Below, in pieces: positions 3,849 through 49,187 of a DNA stretch of 55,859 nt (position 1 is the first letter of the stretch; each line of letters begins with the position of its first letter). The notes beneath the pieces are model-generated. The model did not search any database and had not been told where the DNA came from. It saw only the letters and a program-made list of their open reading frames with translations. Position numbers and translations under genes: made by a program. This DNA comes from Candidatus Methylomirabilota bacterium (lineage in GTDB: Bacteria; Methylomirabilota; Methylomirabilia; Methylomirabilales; Methylomirabilaceae), in contig JAGWQH010000104.1 of the NCBI GenBank assembly GCA_028870115.1, forward strand, positions 1-55,859. Direction: 5' to 3'.

Positions 3849-4622
3849 TCAGCTCTCCCCTCGCCAGCCGATGAAGCTCAACTGGTGGCCGCTCTTTCCC
3901 TCTTTCCGGTATGAGTAGAAATCCCTACTGTAGCAGGCCGTGCAGGGACCGATCTTGTTGATCTGCATCTGAGGAATGCCTGCGCCGAGAAGCTGGGCCT
4001 CGTTGAGCGCTCTCAGGTCAAGGCGACCTTTCGCGCCGTCCGGCTTCCAGGCATTTGTGAGTTCCTTGCGCCAATTCGCACCGATCTGCGCCTCGACCTC
4101 AGGTCCCACCTCGTAGCAGCAGGGGCCGATGGACGGTCCCATCGCCACGTGAAGCGCGGCGAGGTCGATCCGGTAGGCCTCTTTCATCAACGCGACCGCC
4201 CGTGGGGCGATGCCTTCGGCCGTTCCCCGCCAGCCGGCGTGGATCGCAGCGGCAATCTTTCGAACAGGCTCCACGAACAGGAGGGGGACGCAATCGGCCG
4301 CCATCACCCCTACGCAGAGATTGGGCGCATCGGTCATCAGCCCATCCCCGATCCCGGCCAGCTTGCCGGTCTCGCTGGAGACCGGCAGGATCACATTGCC
4401 GTGGACCTGCTTGGCCGTGATAATGTCGATATCGCGCAGGCCAAGCGCTATCTTCAGCTCGCACCAGTTCTGTCTAACGGCTTGAGGATCGTCTCCATCA
4501 TCGCATGAAAGGCGAAAGGCGGCATTGGATGGCCGGTCCCGGCCGCCGACGCGGCCAAGAAAGCCGTGGACCAAGCCGTTAAATTGTTGCCAGTGCGGGA
4601 CTTCCAGACGAAGAATCTTCAT
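3849..4622 (-). CDS. pgeF: Peptidoglycan editing factor / laccase-domain protein PgeF (YfiH)
   Basis: 257 residues, the usual family length. Family landmarks are visible in order: KQVHGN, the metal-site segment [38 protein letters not shown] and the C-terminal [13 protein letters not shown]. The conserved His and Cys residues of the metal-binding site are present. Family members act on purine nucleosides (phosphorylase/deaminase activity), and PgeF prevents mis-incorporation of serine into peptidoglycan precursors in E. coli. The start at 4622 has no clear ribosome binding site. It is divergent from the CbiX-NUDIX gene across 107 bases, and its end abuts the YjbQ remnant. Confidence 0.9.
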
Positions 4623-4729
4623 GTTGGGGCTATTCTACGCAAACACCGGAGGCGTGTCAAACTGTGGCACTGGAGCAATCCTCAGCGGACAGGATTGTCA
4701 CCCACTGCTCTGGGGAGTATAATAACCAC

Positions 4730-5677
4730 ATGAAGCAAGCCCTTTTAATCGTTGATCATGGCAGCCGCCGCGAAGGATCAAACGATCTGCTCCGTCAGGT
4801 CGCCACCCTGATGGGGGAACGGTTCGGCCTGAGTATCGTCCACTACGCCCACATGGAGCTTGGCGAGCCGACCATCCAACAGGGGTTTGATGCCTGCGTT
4901 GCTGATGGGGCGGAGGAGGTGATTATCCATCCGTACTTTCTGAGTGCGGGGCATCACGTCGCCGTCGGCATTCCCGACCTGGTCAGGCAGGCGGCCGGTC
5001 GACACCCGGGCGTGACCTGCCGGATCACACAGCCGCTGGGTGTCCATCCAAAGATCGGCGAGGTGATCCTCGAACGGGTTACCGAATCCGATGGCGATGA
5101 TCAGGTGGGGACAGTTCAATCGGAACTCGACGTATCGGGCGAGGGCAAGCGCGCGCATGGCCATATGCACCGCACGGACGACTCGTTCCGATATTGCCCG
5201 CGATGCGGGATGGCGCTCAAACCCAGGCAGCTGAAGCCAGACGGGCCAGAGCTGCCGGCCTGTCAGAGCTGCTCATTCATCCAGTATCCCGACCCAAAGG
5301 TGGCGGCAGGCACCCTGTTTACGCTTGACGGTGGGATCGTACTGGTCCGACGAGCGATCTCCCCGGCGTACGGCAAATGGGTCTTTCCCGGCGGCTTCGT
5401 CGATAAGGGCGAGCGGGTCGAGGCGGCGGCCATTCGCGAAACGAAAGAAGAGGTCAACCTCGATGTCGAGATCGACCGGCTTCTGAATGTCTACTCCTAT
5501 GAAGACTCCGGGGTCGTGATCGTCGCCTACGCGGCGCGTGTCGTCGGTGGCGAGCTCGCCGCAAAGGACGAAGCGCTCGATGCGAAGGTCTTCTCCCCAA
5601 CCAGGATTCCGTGGGAGGACCTGGCGTTCCGCAGTGCGCACGACGCCATCAAGGATTATCTTGCTTACTACTTCTGA
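4730..5677 (+). CDS. CbiX-like chelatase domain fused to zinc-ribbon NUDIX hydrolase
   Basis: 315 residues with an unusual architecture. Residues 1 to about 120 resemble a single-domain CbiX/SirB chelatase ([14 protein letters not shown] at the N-terminus and [11 protein letters not shown] with the second metal-site histidine). A charged linker follows, then a zinc ribbon (CPRCG from residue 156, CQSC about 25 later), then a NUDIX domain whose box starts near residue 222 (GFVDKGE, seven residues, [10 protein letters not shown] replaces the usual last G). The zinc ribbon plus NUDIX half resembles NudC-like or ADP-ribose/NADH pyrophosphatases. I chose ATG 4730 because the chelatase motif starts there; an in-frame ATG at 4664 adds 22 unlikely residues. 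The physiological link between the halves is unknown. Confidence 0.82.
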
Positions 5678-5709: not shown

Positions 5710-6573
5710 GTGCCTCGAGTGCGTGACAATAGTAAGGATTATTACGCGATCCTTGGCGTATCATCAGACGTTTCGGAAGAAGAACTGAAAAAGGCCTACC
5801 GGCGACTCGCGCTCCAGCATCACCCCGACAAGAATCCGGGAGATCCCAGGGCGGGGGAGCGGTTCAAAGCGATCAGCGAGGCGTATGCCGTTCTGATGGA
5901 TCAGAGCAAGCGGAGCCAGTACGATGCCTTCCGCGGGACCCAAGCCGGGGCGGGCGGCGCCGCGGGCGGATTCCGGTACTCCCAGGAAGAGATTTTCCGG
6001 GATCTCTTTTCTAATCCTGCCATGTCATCGATCTTTCAGGAGATGAACCGTGAATTCGCCAGGGCCGGTATCCGCTTCGATGACGCTTTCGTGCGCCAGG
6101 TCTTCTTCGGTAGCCGCGGATTCGTCTTCGGCGGTGTCTTTATGGGTGCGCCGATCGGGGTGCTCAGACGACGCGCCTCTCGCATGGCGGTCGATCGCCG
6201 AGGAGACAGGTCAACGGTTGAAGGGACCCTGGGCCAAGAGGCATTGGAAGAGGGCCGCTCACAGGGCCTCTGGTCAGCGATCGGCCGAGGGCTCAAGGCC
6301 GGCTGTGACCTGGTGAAACGGAGAATATTCGGAGCGTCGGATTCTGCTGAGGCTAGTCCGAATCTCCGGTATCATCTGACCGTTACCGCTCAGGAGGCCG
6401 CGTCCGGCACGCGCAAGCGCGTCAGCTTCATGCGGGGCGACCAGATCGAGGAGCTGATGGTGGCAATCCCTCCCGGCATCCGATCCGGGACCAGGCTGCG
6501 GTTGAAAGGCAAAGGGCTTGAGGGTGAGAATGGGATGCGCGGGGACCTCTATTTGCGGGTGACAATTACATAG
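5710..6573 (+). CDS. J-domain co-chaperone, CbpA-like (no zinc finger)
   Basis: 287 residues. An N-terminal J domain ([20 protein letters not shown], then HHPDKNPGD with the HPD triad that stimulates DnaK) is followed by a Gly/Ala-rich and Phe-rich linker. The C-terminal domain ends [22 protein letters not shown], as in class B DnaJ/CbpA substrate-binding domains. The cysteine-rich zinc-binding domain of true DnaJ is absent. I chose GTG 5710 because GGAG lies eight bases upstream and the J domain begins right after; a longer in-frame start at 5611 would overlap the NUDIX gene. It lies 32 bases after the NUDIX stop and is probably co-transcribed. Confidence 0.85.
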
Positions 6574-6774: not shown

Positions 6775-8709
6775 ATGACAATACGAGCCAGGTTACTGCT
6801 CGGATTTGGACTGGTGTGCCTTGCCCTGGTGGCGGCGCCGCTTACCATCTATATGGTGCAAAGCAGCAGAGCGCTCCAATCCGCGCGCCTGAAGTACGCT
6901 GGAATTGCGCCGTCGAAGGCGCTACTGAGGATGGTGCAGTTGCAGCAACAGCATCGTGGACTCTCAGCCGGCGTTCTGGGCGGGAACATGACGATGGAGG
7001 TGCAGCGCGTCGCCAAGCAAGCTGAAACTGACAAGGCGGTCGAGGCATTTGGTGCGATTGTACAGTCCGACATCCATGATCCCGCGTTGGTCGCCGACTG
7101 GCGCCGGGTGGCCGACTCCTGGAGGGGGCTTGCGAGCGGCGTGTCCTCGCGCTCGATCTCCGGTGAGGAGAGTTTTACCAAACACACGGCGCTCGTCGAC
7201 GAAGATCTGAAGCTGCTCGATCTCATGTTGGATTACTTCGGCCTATCGTACGACCCAACCGGCCGTGACTACCATCTGACCATGGCGCTGTTGGTGCATA
7301 TGCCGACCCTCACCGAGTTCCTCGGCCAGGCGCGGGCGCGCGGCATGCTCCTGTTGGCGCAAAAGCGCATTACACTTGCGGACCGTACCGCGTTGATCAG
7401 TCTGATCAGCAATGTCGAGAGGCAACACGAGTACATGAAGCGCGAGTTAGGCAAGGCGGTGGCGCTAAACCCACAAATGAAATCCGATCTGGGCCATATC
7501 GCACAGGGAAGCATGTTGCTCGCGCGGATGGCGATAGATCTCGCCAGAACCCAGGTGGTAGAAGTCGAGGCGCCAAGCTATTCGCCGACCGATTACTTAG
7601 CGCTATTCACCCAGGCGATCGACGGTCAATTCGCGCTACTCGATAGAGCGATGGTCGACCTGGAAGGAGGGTTAGAGGCGCGCATTGCCGCGTTGCGAGG
7701 TGGACAGATGATGACGATCGGCTTCATGGCGGCGGTGATCGCGTTCGCGGTCTGGCTTGGGGCGGTGTTCGTCCGCGCGATCAGACAGGATATGGCCGCC
7801 CTGCAACAGAGCGAGGAGGCGCAGCGACGCCACGCCGGCGAGCTCGAAGCCACCGTCGAGGAGCGGACGAGAGAGCTACGTGTGGCCAATGCTCAGCTCG
7901 AAGCGGCGTCCCGCCATAAGTCCGAGTTCCTGACCCACATGTCACACGAACTGCGGACCCCCCTGAACGCGATCCTCGGCTTCTCGGAGCTCCTGCGAAA
8001 CCCGACCATCGGGCCGCTCAATGAGCAGCAAGCCCGGCACCTTACCCACATCCAGACAGGCGGCAAGCACCTGCTAGCCATCACCAACGACCTCCTTGAC
8101 CTCGCTAAAGTCGAGGCAGGTAAGCTTGAGCTGTACCCGGAGCCCTTCGTCCTCGATGAAGCACTCATGGCCGCCCTTGCCGGTGTCCGACCGATGGCCG
8201 ACCACAAGCGCCTGAGCCTCACGCTGCACGCTGAAACCGCTACGACTCCCTTCACTGCCGACCCCGTCCGATTCAAACAGATTATGTACAACCTCCTCTC
8301 CAACGCCATCAAGTTCACCCCTGAAGGCGGCCAAGTTACGGTTACTGCACGGATGGCGTCAGACGCCGGACATCAAGAAGCAGGAAGCAGGAGGCAGGAG
8401 GCAGAAAAACAAGACGGGGATCCTCAACCCACAGGTGATTTCTTAGAAATCGCCGTGACCGATACCGGGATTGGGATGACGGCAGAGAATCTGATCAAGC
8501 TCTTTCAACCCTTTACCCAACTGGACCCCGCCCTTGCCAAGCAGTACCATGGGACCGGCCTCGGACTTGTGCTCACGAAGCAGCTCATTGAGCTACACAA
8601 CGGCAGGATCTGGGCAACCTCGGAGGGCAAAGGTCGCGGGAGCAGTTTCACAATACGCTTCCCACTGGTGCCACGGTCGAGTCCGGGAATGGATGGTAAA
8701 CGACTATGA
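6775..8709 (+). CDS. Membrane sensor histidine kinase with NIT-like sensory domain
   Basis: 644 residues. One transmembrane helix lies at about 5-27. The periplasmic region contains LQQQHRGLSAGVLGGN, which resembles the start of NIT domains (nitrate/nitrite-sensing, four-helix). A second membrane helix lies at about 313-335, then a coiled coil (ERTRELRVANAQLEAASR). The HisKA dimerisation domain has the phospho-acceptor H391 in HMSHELRTPLN, and a HATPase domain follows (N-box NLLSNAIKFTPE, G1 DTGIGM, G2 GTGLGL). The HATPase domain contains a low-complexity insertion encoded by a short tandem repeat. No response regulator is adjacent, so the partner is elsewhere. Its stop overlaps the stop of the convergent hydrolase gene. 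Confidence 0.88.
   Translation: MTIRARLLLGFGLVCLALVAAPLTIYMVQSSRALQSARLKYAGIAPSKALLRMVQLQQQHRGLSAGVLGGNMTMEVQRVAKQAETDKAVEAFGAIVQSDIHDPALVADWRRVADSWRGLASGVSSRSISGEESFTKHTALVDEDLKLLDLMLDYFGLSYDPTGRDYHLTMALLVHMPTLTEFLGQARARGMLLLAQKRITLADRTALISLISNVERQHEYMKRELGKAVALNPQMKSDLGHIAQGSMLLARMAIDLARTQVVEVEAPSYSPTDYLALFTQAIDGQFALLDRAMVDLEGGLEARIAALRGGQMMTIGFMAAVIAFAVWLGAVFVRAIRQDMAALQQSEEAQRRHAGELEATVEERTRELRVANAQLEAASRHKSEFLTHMSHELRTPLNAILGFSELLRNPTIGPLNEQQARHLTHIQTGGKHLLAITNDLLDLAKVEAGKLELYPEPFVLDEALMAALAGVRPMADHKRLSLTLHAETATTPFTADPVRFKQIMYNLLSNAIKFTPEGGQVTVTARMASDAGHQEAGSRRQEAEKQDGDPQPTGDFLEIAVTDTGIGMTAENLIKLFQPFTQLDPALAKQYHGTGLGLVLTKQLIELHNGRIWATSEGKGRGSSFTIRFPLVPRSSPGMDGKRL
8368..8413 (+). repeat. 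GCAGGAGGCAG-type tandem repeat inside the kinase ATPase domain
   Basis: Between the N-box and the G1 box of the histidine kinase the DNA turns into reiterated GAAGCAGGAAGCAGGAGGC units. They encode about 20 residues rich in E, Q, A, R and D that are not part of the HATPase fold. The unit keeps the frame, so the kinase is still full length. Confidence 0.6.
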
Positions 8710-46566: not shown

Positions 46567-47686
46567 GCCAAACCTTTTCGAGTACGCTACATCTGAGTTG
46601 AGTCAGGACGCATTTTTCTGTTGGCTCCTGGATTGGTTGAACGATCCCAATCAACTTGTGGCGGAAGCAAGCTGGCGCCTGTTCGAGCAGGTATTTGGTT
46701 CGAGGGGCTTGGCCGTACAGCGAGACGGTATCGCCGCGGTGCATATCAGGCGACAGTTCCACGGGGTCGACATCGTTGTTGTCTTCGAGTTGGTGTCACA
46801 ACCGAAGATCTGCCTTGTCATTGAGGACAAGGTCGATGCGCTGCTCACAGGGAACGATCAACTCGTGCGGAACATCGAGAACACGGCCACGCACGCCGAT
46901 GAGTGGCCACCGCTGTGCGGGGTTGAGCGAGATCGAATCATGGGGTTACTCTTGAAAACGGGCTATGACTTCGATTTTCGGTGCCCACCAAGCTATACAA
47001 TGCTGACCCACCTCGACTTCAAGGACTGGGTGGAGGGTCTATTGGCGCGAAGCCTTGAAGTCAGCGACATTCTGACGAACTGGGCCGAATGGTGTTACCG
47101 AGGCTATCGAGAAAGCGAGGAGAAGGTACTAGCGGCGACGGTCCACGTTGGTGACATCGCAAGCGGGAAGTGGGTTGATAACAAGCTCTGGGATAGTCAG
47201 TGGGCGAATCCCATATACCAGTACAACCTGTTCAAGCGACTCTTCCACGTCGAACTCGGTGACATTGTCGAAGTGAAGGAAGACGATGGGTACCGTACTG
47301 TCTACTTCCATCCTTTTTACAACCGCGCTCGTAAGGAGTATCTACTCCAGGGTACGAGCCGGGGGCGTTGGTGGATTCAGTATCATTTCGACGCCCCAGG
47401 AGCCGACGATTTCTTCTATCGCCTCGACTGGCAGGCTGGCATGTGGGGGATCAGCCTGAGGTTCTACAAGAAAGATAAGTCGGCGGACGATCTGCGTCGG
47501 ATGCAGGATGTCGCCGCGACTCTCGAAGCCTTGCTCAAAGCGCGGGGGCTTGTGACAAGTAGGTTCCGCTCCTCAAGTGCGCGCATCGAGACAACATGCC
47601 TCTTGATCGATCCTTACCGGAGCCCAGGCCTGCTGGAGATGGCTGGTGTCCACGCCGACTTCGTCGGGGCGAAATTTGCCGTCTGA
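46559..47686 (+). CDS. PD-(D/E)XK nuclease family protein
   Basis: 375 residues. N-terminal LSQDAFFCWLLDWL is the typical opening helix, and GVDIVVVFELVSQPKICLVIEDKVDALLTGNDQL contains the D then E-x-K of the PD-(D/E)XK core plus a following Gln/Leu helix. The C-terminal 200 residues are not assigned. The core resembles the PDDEXK_4-type defence nucleases. ATG 46559 has GGGGAGGGG upstream and overlaps the remnant WYL frame. The DUF2779 gene follows after 16 bases. Confidence 0.8.
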   Translation: MGKPNLFEYATSELSQDAFFCWLLDWLNDPNQLVAEASWRLFEQVFGSRGLAVQRDGIAAVHIRRQFHGVDIVVVFELVSQPKICLVIEDKVDALLTGNDQLVRNIENTATHADEWPPLCGVERDRIMGLLLKTGYDFDFRCPPSYTMLTHLDFKDWVEGLLARSLEVSDILTNWAEWCYRGYRESEEKVLAATVHVGDIASGKWVDNKLWDSQWANPIYQYNLFKRLFHVELGDIVEVKEDDGYRTVYFHPFYNRARKEYLLQGTSRGRWWIQYHFDAPGADDFFYRLDWQAGMWGISLRFYKKDKSADDLRRMQDVAATLEALLKARGLVTSRFRSSSARIETTCLLIDPYRSPGLLEMAGVHADFVGAKFAV

Positions 47687-47702
47687 GCAGGCCGTAGGAC
47701 AG

Positions 47703-49187
47703 ATGGGGCACAGCCGCCAAGTTGGTCTCTCGAAGTCCCGAGTGATGGCGGGGCTGCAGTGTCATAAGCGCCTCTGGTGGATGGTGCGCGAGCCGACAGC
47801 GCCCGAGCTTCAACCGGATGAGATGGCGCAGGCGGTGATGGATCGAGGGATCCGCGTCGGTCAACTCGCCCGAACCTATGTTCCCGGCGGGCTTGTCATC
47901 GATCTGCCATACAATGCTTATGACGAGCGTATCAGACTGACCCGGCAGGCACTCGAAGACGGCGCGCCGGCGGTCTATGAGGCATCATTCCGCGCAGACG
48001 GCGTCTTCGTTGCGGTGGACATCCTGAAGCGGGACACTCATGGTTTCCGCCTTATTGAGGTGAAGTCAAGCACATCGGTCAAGGACCACTACATTTCCGA
48101 CGTGGCCATCCAGGCGCACGTTCTGCGACAGAACGGGCTCGACCTCGTGGGCAGCGAGGTGATGCATCTCAACCGTGAATGCGCCTATCCGGACCTCTCG
48201 AACCTCTTCGTGCGGTCGGACGTGACGGAGACGGTTGGAGCGGTCGAGGAGAGTGTGCTGAGGTGGGTGGCCGAGCAGATCGAGATGCTCGAAGGGTCGG
48301 TTCCTGACGTGGCCATCGGGCCTCATTGCACAATGCCCCACGACTGCCCATTCATGGCGCGATGCTGGCCGACGCTTCCGCCCCATCACGTGAGCATGCT
48401 CTACGCCATGAAACGCCGGGCCCCGGAGCTCGAAAGGCAGGGCTACCGGACGATTTATGACCTTCCGAAAGAGGTATCGCTCGGACAGGTTGCGGACCGA
48501 CAGCGGCGCGCGGTACAAGAAGGCCGAATTATCGTGGAGGCGACCCTCGCCAGAGCGCTGGACGTCTTCGTGCCCCCGATCGCCTTTCTCGACTTCGAGA
48601 CCGTGGGCCTGGCGATTCCAGTCTGGGAGGGGTGCCACCCCTACGATGCCGTGCCGGTCCAGTTCAGTTGCCACGTCCAGGAGGCCGATGACCGCGTCAC
48701 TCATCACGAGTGGCTCGCTGAAGGGCCTGAAGATCCAAGGCCGACGCTTGCGGAGCGCCTGGTCCAGGGGTGCGAGTCCGCTCGAACGGTCGTTGCCTAC
48801 AACGCCAGCTTCGAGCGTGGGTGCATCGAGCAGATGGCCGACGCTCTGCCGGCCCTCGCAACGCCGCTGCGGAGCATCGTCGCTCGCCTGGTGGACCCGC
48901 TCCCGGTTGTCCGTAACCACGTGTACCACCCGGACTTCGGAGGCAGCTTTAGCCTGAAGAGCGTTCTTCCGGCACTCGTGCCTGAGCTTCATTACAGTAA
49001 CCTCGCAATCGCTGATGGAGGAACAGCGAGTCTTGAGCTGGAGCGGCTACTTTTCAATGGGGACAGGATAGAGCCGAACGCGAAGGGCCGCCTCCGGAGC
49101 AACCTGCTCCGCTATTGCCACCAGGACACCTGGGGCCTGGTCAGACTCCTGGAACGTCTTCGGCAGCTCAGTGTCAGAATGGGATGA
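47703..49187 (+). CDS. DUF2779 protein: Cas4-like PD-(D/E)XK plus DEDD exonuclease
   Basis: About 494 residues. The N-terminal half has LQCHKRLWW (first cysteine), AVDILKRDTHGFRLIEVKSST (catalytic D and E-x-K) and CTMPHDCPFMARCW, together the Cas4/AddB-like four-cysteine iron-sulfur nuclease layout. The C-terminal half has FLDFETVGLAIP, AYNASFERG and YCHQDTWG, an RNase H-like DEDD exonuclease. I recognise the combined DUF2779 architecture. ATG 47703 follows AGGA; a longer frame begins at 47646 and would overlap the nuclease gene. The Cas4-like half suggests DNA end processing. Confidence 0.85.
   Translation: MGHSRQVGLSKSRVMAGLQCHKRLWWMVREPTAPELQPDEMAQAVMDRGIRVGQLARTYVPGGLVIDLPYNAYDERIRLTRQALEDGAPAVYEASFRADGVFVAVDILKRDTHGFRLIEVKSSTSVKDHYISDVAIQAHVLRQNGLDLVGSEVMHLNRECAYPDLSNLFVRSDVTETVGAVEESVLRWVAEQIEMLEGSVPDVAIGPHCTMPHDCPFMARCWPTLPPHHVSMLYAMKRRAPELERQGYRTIYDLPKEVSLGQVADRQRRAVQEGRIIVEATLARALDVFVPPIAFLDFETVGLAIPVWEGCHPYDAVPVQFSCHVQEADDRVTHHEWLAEGPEDPRPTLAERLVQGCESARTVVAYNASFERGCIEQMADALPALATPLRSIVARLVDPLPVVRNHVYHPDFGGSFSLKSVLPALVPELHYSNLAIADGGTASLELERLLFNGDRIEPNAKGRLRSNLLRYCHQDTWGLVRLLERLRQLSVRMG

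Follow-up and report, generated by a model that had tools for sequence, protein, structure and literature searches.

Most of the genomes examined from the genus Candidatus Methylomirabilis carry a CbiX-like chelatase and a zinc-ribbon NUDIX hydrolase in a single unbroken gene, and this fusion is true and genus-specific. The protein is probably a sirohydrochlorin ferrochelatase to which a zinc-ribbon NUDIX pyrophosphohydrolase is attached as a passenger at the C-terminal end, the two having been joined by one deletion. This reading gives nitrite-dependent methane oxidisers a likely ferrochelatase for siroheme and hence for haem d1. It also describes a gene fusion whose pre-fusion state and junction are both preserved in living relatives. 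As far as the literature searched goes, the CbiX-NUDIX pairing is a new combination of two known families, and no report of such a fusion was found in the open full-text literature.

The fused gene lies at positions 4730-5677 on the forward strand of the window, that is, of the whole 55,859-nucleotide stretch that was analyzed. It translates as a stop-free frame of 315 residues. The start at 4730 is backed by the alignment of 11 proteins; a GTG at 4664 could give a longer frame, but that alignment does not support it. The CbiX half covers residues 1-119 (4730-5086), and Pfam places CbiX (PF01903) at residues 10-114 (5e-26, 91.5 bits against a cut-off of 22). This score above the cut-off, the class II chelatase fold and the presence of His10 and His76, invariant in 11 of 11 orthologues, which we take from SirB and CbiX-S to be the catalytic metal-binding pair, make this half a class II chelatase. 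Residues 120-151 (5087-5182) form a linker predicted to be disordered. The zinc ribbon follows at residues 154-186 (5189-5287), with C156, C159, C178 and C181. Its score against Zn_ribbon_Nudix (PF14803, formerly Nudix_N_2) is 25.2 bits, just below the cut-off of 25.6, and a stand-alone Nitrospirota relative reaches 36.0 bits. The NUDIX domain occupies residues 190-296 (5297-5617; 3.7e-19, 69.5 bits against a cut-off of 21.1). Its box reads G222-X5-E228-X7-R236-E237-X2-E240-E241; compared with GX5EX7REUXEEXGU, T238 and N243 replace the U and G positions, and the Arg and Glu residues of REXXEE are retained.

An earlier note on this DNA had described one 315-residue frame holding both enzymes, with the motifs DHGSR, AGHH, CPRCG, CQSC and a NUDIX box. 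Translation, Pfam and 11 genomes bear out the frame as a true fusion, and each motif lies where it was claimed to lie, intact. The one invariant histidine of AGHH is the second (H76); three of 11 orthologues have K, R or Q in place of H75.

The AlphaFold2 model (24-row alignment, mean pLDDT 79.5) consists of two folded parts joined by residues 123-151, where pLDDT falls below 50. In VIA-align comparisons of this predicted model, residues 1-124 match SirB of Bacillus subtilis (5zt7_B) with Z 18.2 and rmsd 1.8 over 118 aligned residues. Residues 188-315 match 3cng_A with Z 19.7 and rmsd 1.9 over 128 residues; the VIA-align rows cover mainly residues 187-315, and this Z describes the NUDIX part. 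The orientation of the zinc ribbon in the model is unreliable, as its Foldseek rmsd to 3cng is about 10.

Each half has a known relative, and each relative differs from the fusion. SirB (PDB 5zt7-5zta) aligns with residues 1-118 in both sequence and fold, but has two CbiX-like halves per chain and carries neither zinc ribbon nor NUDIX domain. CfbA/CbiX-S (PDB 6m28), which Foldseek also lists for the chelatase half, is likewise a single CbiX domain of about 120 residues; these enzymes, however, stand alone and handle nickel or cobalt, and the CbiX half of the fusion does not reach the NCBIfam CfbA cut-off. The zinc-ribbon NUDIX of Nitrosomonas europaea (PDB 3cng) aligns with residues 153-311 through both ribbon and NUDIX (E 1.7e-27). 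It is unfused, and is labelled just "NUDIX hydrolase", with no named substrate. Chelatases fused to other enzymes have precedents in CbiX-CbiC (NCBIfam PRK05782) and CysG (excerpts of PMC4063343), but there the partners are steps of the same tetrapyrrole pathway.

The earlier note had proposed a survey for the same domain order in other genomes. The fusion does recur, though among the genomes searched only within the genus. The complete fusion is present in 11 of 15 genus genomes, the source genome (G000) included. In the 10 others the frame is intact at 75-90% identity, and one of them (G025) is a single 2.75-Mb contig. Two genomes (G028 and G029) hold the same halves as adjacent separate genes in different frames, and CbiX is missing altogether from two more, G023 and G027, which are each about 80% complete. 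Among the matches listed (E to about 8e-15) for 80 Methylomirabilota genomes outside the genus, not one ran across both halves, and none did so in 198 Nitrospirota genomes (E up to 1e-30) or in two further phyla represented by 396 and 395 genomes (E up to 1e-25). The survey outside the genus thus found none among about 1,070 genomes, covering three phyla besides Methylomirabilota, at thresholds that a diverged fusion would escape.

The split genes indicate how the fusion arose. Aligned at the nucleotide level, the split genes contain a stretch, with the stop codon of CbiX and some of the intergenic DNA, that is missing from the fused ones. In trees of the two halves the fused sequences cluster (80/90 and 89/85) within a genus clade (100/99 and 100/100), and the split genes fall outside the fused clade. 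One fusion event by deletion accounts for both the alignment gap and the tree topology. Gene comparison thus shows two formerly adjacent, separate genes joined in frame by one deletion within the genus. The linker is partly former intergenic DNA, together with a His-rich stretch that derives from the old NUDIX N-terminus. On our reading of the alignment, the former NUDIX start region (AGAGTGACC in G028) can be traced in several of the fused genes, where it reads as a Val codon in frame. The deletion took the CbiX stop codon, and the old start codon became linker together with some of the intergenic DNA.

Fused and split loci share their flanking genes. A divergent Cu-oxidase_4 gene (PgeF/YfiH-like; 3849-4622, reverse strand) is kept upstream at the examined fused and split loci with enough flank. 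A DnaJ-like gene (5710-6573, forward strand) lies downstream of both kinds of locus, with the exception of G029, where the contig stops first. At the G028 locus (L040/L091, 2818-3861) the NUDIX ends after about residue 258 in the numbering of the fusion, and the frame runs on to encode a dienelactone hydrolase, after which comes the usual DnaJ gene. This join reflects either another fusion, a deletion or a chimeric assembly.

What the NUDIX half contributes is the less certain part of the picture. It is predicted to be active and to hydrolyse, in a Mg-dependent way, a nucleoside-diphosphate compound, perhaps one resembling FAD, NADH or ADP-ribose. It is not a NudC-type NADH pyrophosphatase by the PRK00241 equivalog model (37.5 bits against a cut-off of 158), and SQPWPFPxS, which we take to be the NudC signature, is absent from the fusion sequence. 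In our preferred reading the NUDIX domain would hang on a floppy tether of some 30 residues and the two active sites would work independently. The join would provide co-production and tethering, and a shared substrate would be unneeded. Unless coupling is proved, the mechanism is ordinary.

The main alternative is that the halves are functionally coupled: the NUDIX would act in tetrapyrrole metabolism, and the fusion would channel or co-regulate its activity with siroheme synthesis. It might, for example, clear a damaged or nucleotide-linked by-product, tune the supply of FAD or NAD(H), or stabilize pathway enzymes. Evidence for this comes from Nitrospirota. At eight of eight Nitrospirota loci (L041-L046, L048 and L049; eight of the 13 NUDIX-only loci) a stand-alone NUDIX gene sits directly upstream of ccsB-hemA-hemC-cobA/hemD, except that one SDR gene intervenes at L046 and that the L049 contig stops after hemA. 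Among these loci identity falls to 69% for NUDIX and 57% for HemA, so the gene order has lasted. The NUDIX and CbiX genes of Methylomirabilis were, in addition, already neighbors before the fusion.

Work on other Nudix proteins lends this alternative some further color. Plant NUDX23, an FAD pyrophosphohydrolase, has the same order of Nudix_N_2 and NUDIX domains, and is likened to our protein by domain order alone; it differs in being an unfused chloroplast protein (excerpts of PMC12202601). The rice enzyme hydrolyses FAD, NAD(P)H and ADPG according to the same excerpts, and Arabidopsis NUDX23 stabilizes a biosynthetic enzyme complex (commentary PMC11062433). As excerpts of PMC4921024 describe, the fusion of a Nudix domain to a vitamin pathway revealed that a pyrophosphatase has a role in thiamin metabolism. 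We also considered an action of NUDX23 on plant tetrapyrrole synthesis and dropped it, as literature searches did not bear it out; the papers found on this enzyme concern flavin, carotenoids and seed germination.

Several observations count against coupling. The hem association is limited to one lineage. Hem neighbors are found at none of the five other NUDIX-only loci, at two of 56 loci with flanks of about 1.5 kb (both Nitrospirota, one of which, L113, is the same locus as L041), and at none of 20 loci with wider flanks, some of them cut by contig ends. A general NUDIX-hem association is therefore rejected. In several Acidobacteria loci the neighbor is a short-chain dehydrogenase instead, the split genome G028 has a shortened NUDIX joined to a dienelactone hydrolase, and the linker is unconserved. 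We regard coupling as unlikely, if worth keeping in mind. A link of the chelatase with dinucleotide chemistry, which the earlier note had raised, is possible, as is coupling of any kind, and the support for either is circumstantial.

A bolder version makes the zinc-ribbon NUDIX a so far unrecognised accessory tetrapyrrole enzyme in both phyla, heading the hem cluster in Nitrospirota and serving in Methylomirabilis as neighbor and then fusion partner of the ferrochelatase. Its substrate would be a nucleotide-linked metabolite (for example FAD, NAD(H) or a damaged form of one) that either regulates the siroheme branch or is produced along with it. This version is doubtful, and we hold it still more loosely than coupling as such. 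The findings do offer a testable hint that this widespread family of zinc-ribbon NUDIX proteins has to do with tetrapyrrole metabolism. As a separate observation, a short-chain dehydrogenase gene directly follows a NUDIX gene of this family at L039, L046, L053, L054 and L160, mostly in Acidobacteria.

The chelatase half can be placed with more assurance. A PF01903 locus is present in 13 genus genomes. In 11 of them, among which is the one-contig G025, the fused or split CbiX is the sole one; G021 and G028 alone carry an extra locus, a two-domain CbiX (Pfam was run on the G021 copy). The cobalamin gene CobN is found in none of the 15 genus genomes, and CbiD in two (G021 and G028), on the same contig as the extra two-domain CbiX. 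Where cobalamin genes exist, their own chelatase accompanies them. The remaining 13 genus genomes gave no sign of the cobalamin route by either marker, CobN or CbiD.

Genes that use siroheme, on the other hand, are present. Strong matches to cytochrome cd1 nitrite reductase (E<1e-128) occur in 12 of 15 genomes, namely the 11 with the fusion and G027, and in neither split genome. The match between fusion and nirS has no statistical weight, because it rests on one evolutionary event. In the source genome, nirS adjoins genes for a NirJ/AhbC-like radical SAM protein, a second cd1-like propeller and siroheme decarboxylase, both subunits of which score above their NCBIfam cut-offs. At L096 (14181-15311) both siroheme decarboxylase subunits are found in one 376-residue frame beside nirS. 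Of the 11 fused genomes, 10 carry siroheme decarboxylase, which was found in neither of the split ones; the exception is G032, whose nirS contig ends close by. That route can do without the fusion, since the decarboxylase is also encoded in unfused genomes of the phylum (G001-G004, G006, G007, G018, G020 and two genomes of f7). Of the three CbiX loci in the sister family f4, two (L082 and L083) adjoin cobA/hemD, a TauE transporter, PAPS reductase and ATP sulphurylase, as judged by Pfam on L083 and by shared gene clusters for L082. These neighbors are an assimilatory sulphate set, which needs siroheme.

Since cobalamin markers are mostly missing and cytochrome cd1 nitrite reductase, siroheme decarboxylase and the f4 sulphate genes are present, the CbiX half is most likely a sirohydrochlorin ferrochelatase, which inserts iron to make siroheme. 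This assignment comes from pathway context rather than from the active site, and none of the curated models assigns iron to the CbiX half. A precedent exists in Paracoccus. There, as excerpts of PMC4063343 report, a gene annotated cbiX encodes the siroheme ferrochelatase and its deletion stops denitrification, so that an annotated cobaltochelatase serves siroheme and haem d1 in a denitrifier. The Paracoccus protein differs in having two domains, with the active site in the C-terminal half, and no NUDIX. By the same excerpts, Paracoccus has no recognisable precorrin-2 dehydrogenase, and in this it resembles G000, G025, G021 and G029.

In these four genomes no precorrin-2 dehydrogenase/ferrochelatase (TIGR01470) was found, which leaves a gap at one step of the proposed pathway. 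It is found in G028, between nrdR and ccsB; in G000 nrdR adjoins ccsB without it. Weak PF13241 matches, present in most genus genomes, were rejected as precorrin-2 dehydrogenases, given the lack of TIGR01470 in those four. In G000 one such match falls in an adjacent NAD-binding pair resembling TrkA and the other in the HemA frame, labels that were given by eye or similarity and not by a family scan. G000, G025 and G021 show no recognisable dehydrogenase of this kind yet have siroheme decarboxylase, and G021 has CbiD as well (L098, L099).

As a ferrochelatase, the CbiX half would pair with a second copy, by analogy with the archaeal single-domain CbiX-S, which works as a symmetrical dimer (excerpts of PMC4063343). 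It would insert Fe2+ into sirohydrochlorin by way of His10 and His76, yielding siroheme. The siroheme decarboxylase and the NirJ- and NirF/N-like proteins encoded beside nirS would then carry siroheme on to haem d1 for the cytochrome cd1 nitrite reductase.

The earlier note had suggested, as an example, insertion of cobalt or nickel instead, which would serve cobalamin or an F430-like cofactor. Class II chelatases of the CfbA type accept several metals in vitro. The best NCBIfam match of the CbiX half is indeed the CfbA nickelochelatase (NF033198), and CfbA (6m28) is in the Foldseek list, but the score of 68.2 bits is far under the nickelochelatase cut-off of 120. CobN is absent, CbiD comes solely with an extra CbiX, and the siroheme-using partners indicate iron, for siroheme and then haem d1. 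Cobalt or nickel is thus very unlikely here, and a "cobalt chelatase" annotation transferred to this half is most likely wrong.

Could the gene instead be a non-adaptive relic, with one half decaying and merely carried along? The unconserved linker and the unfused NUDIX of G028, which is without its C-terminal third, might suggest so. Across 55 pairwise comparisons of fused genes, 54 of which could be used for the linker, however, dN/dS is 0.165 for residues 1-119 and 0.117 for residues 152-313, against 0.540 for the linker. His10, His76, Cys156 and Cys159 do not vary among the 11 proteins, and C178, C181 and the NUDIX box residues (REXXEE core) are kept in all 11 alignment rows. Both halves are under purifying selection, which argues that the protein is not a decaying relic and contradicts the "stable relic" of the earlier note; we give that explanation scarcely any credence. 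That the frame is an artefact, two genes between which a frameshift or stop was missed, has next to no chance of being right: two genus genomes do hold two separate genes, but 11 assemblies are concordant, and the intact frame in the 10 beyond our source, one of them single-contig, excludes an assembly error for practical purposes.

Finally, the fused gene is predicted to have its own promoter. A sigma-70-like TTGTCA-17-TATAAT lies at 4695-4723 on the forward strand, its -10 box ending 6 nt before the ATG. TTGTCA-17-TATAAT or TATACT (TTGCGA in one gene), ending 6-8 nt before the ATG, occurs in nine of 11 fused genes, in neither of the two split ones, and at none of 2000 random positions of L034. 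A -10 box this close to the ATG predicts a leaderless message. Rfam gave no match in the window. Two genes downstream of the fusion, at 6775-8709, is a histidine kinase with a NIT (nitrate/nitrite sensing) domain, and its gene cluster recurs near the fused gene in other genus genomes. Further along the window, positions 47646-49187 encode a DUF2779 protein of unknown function.
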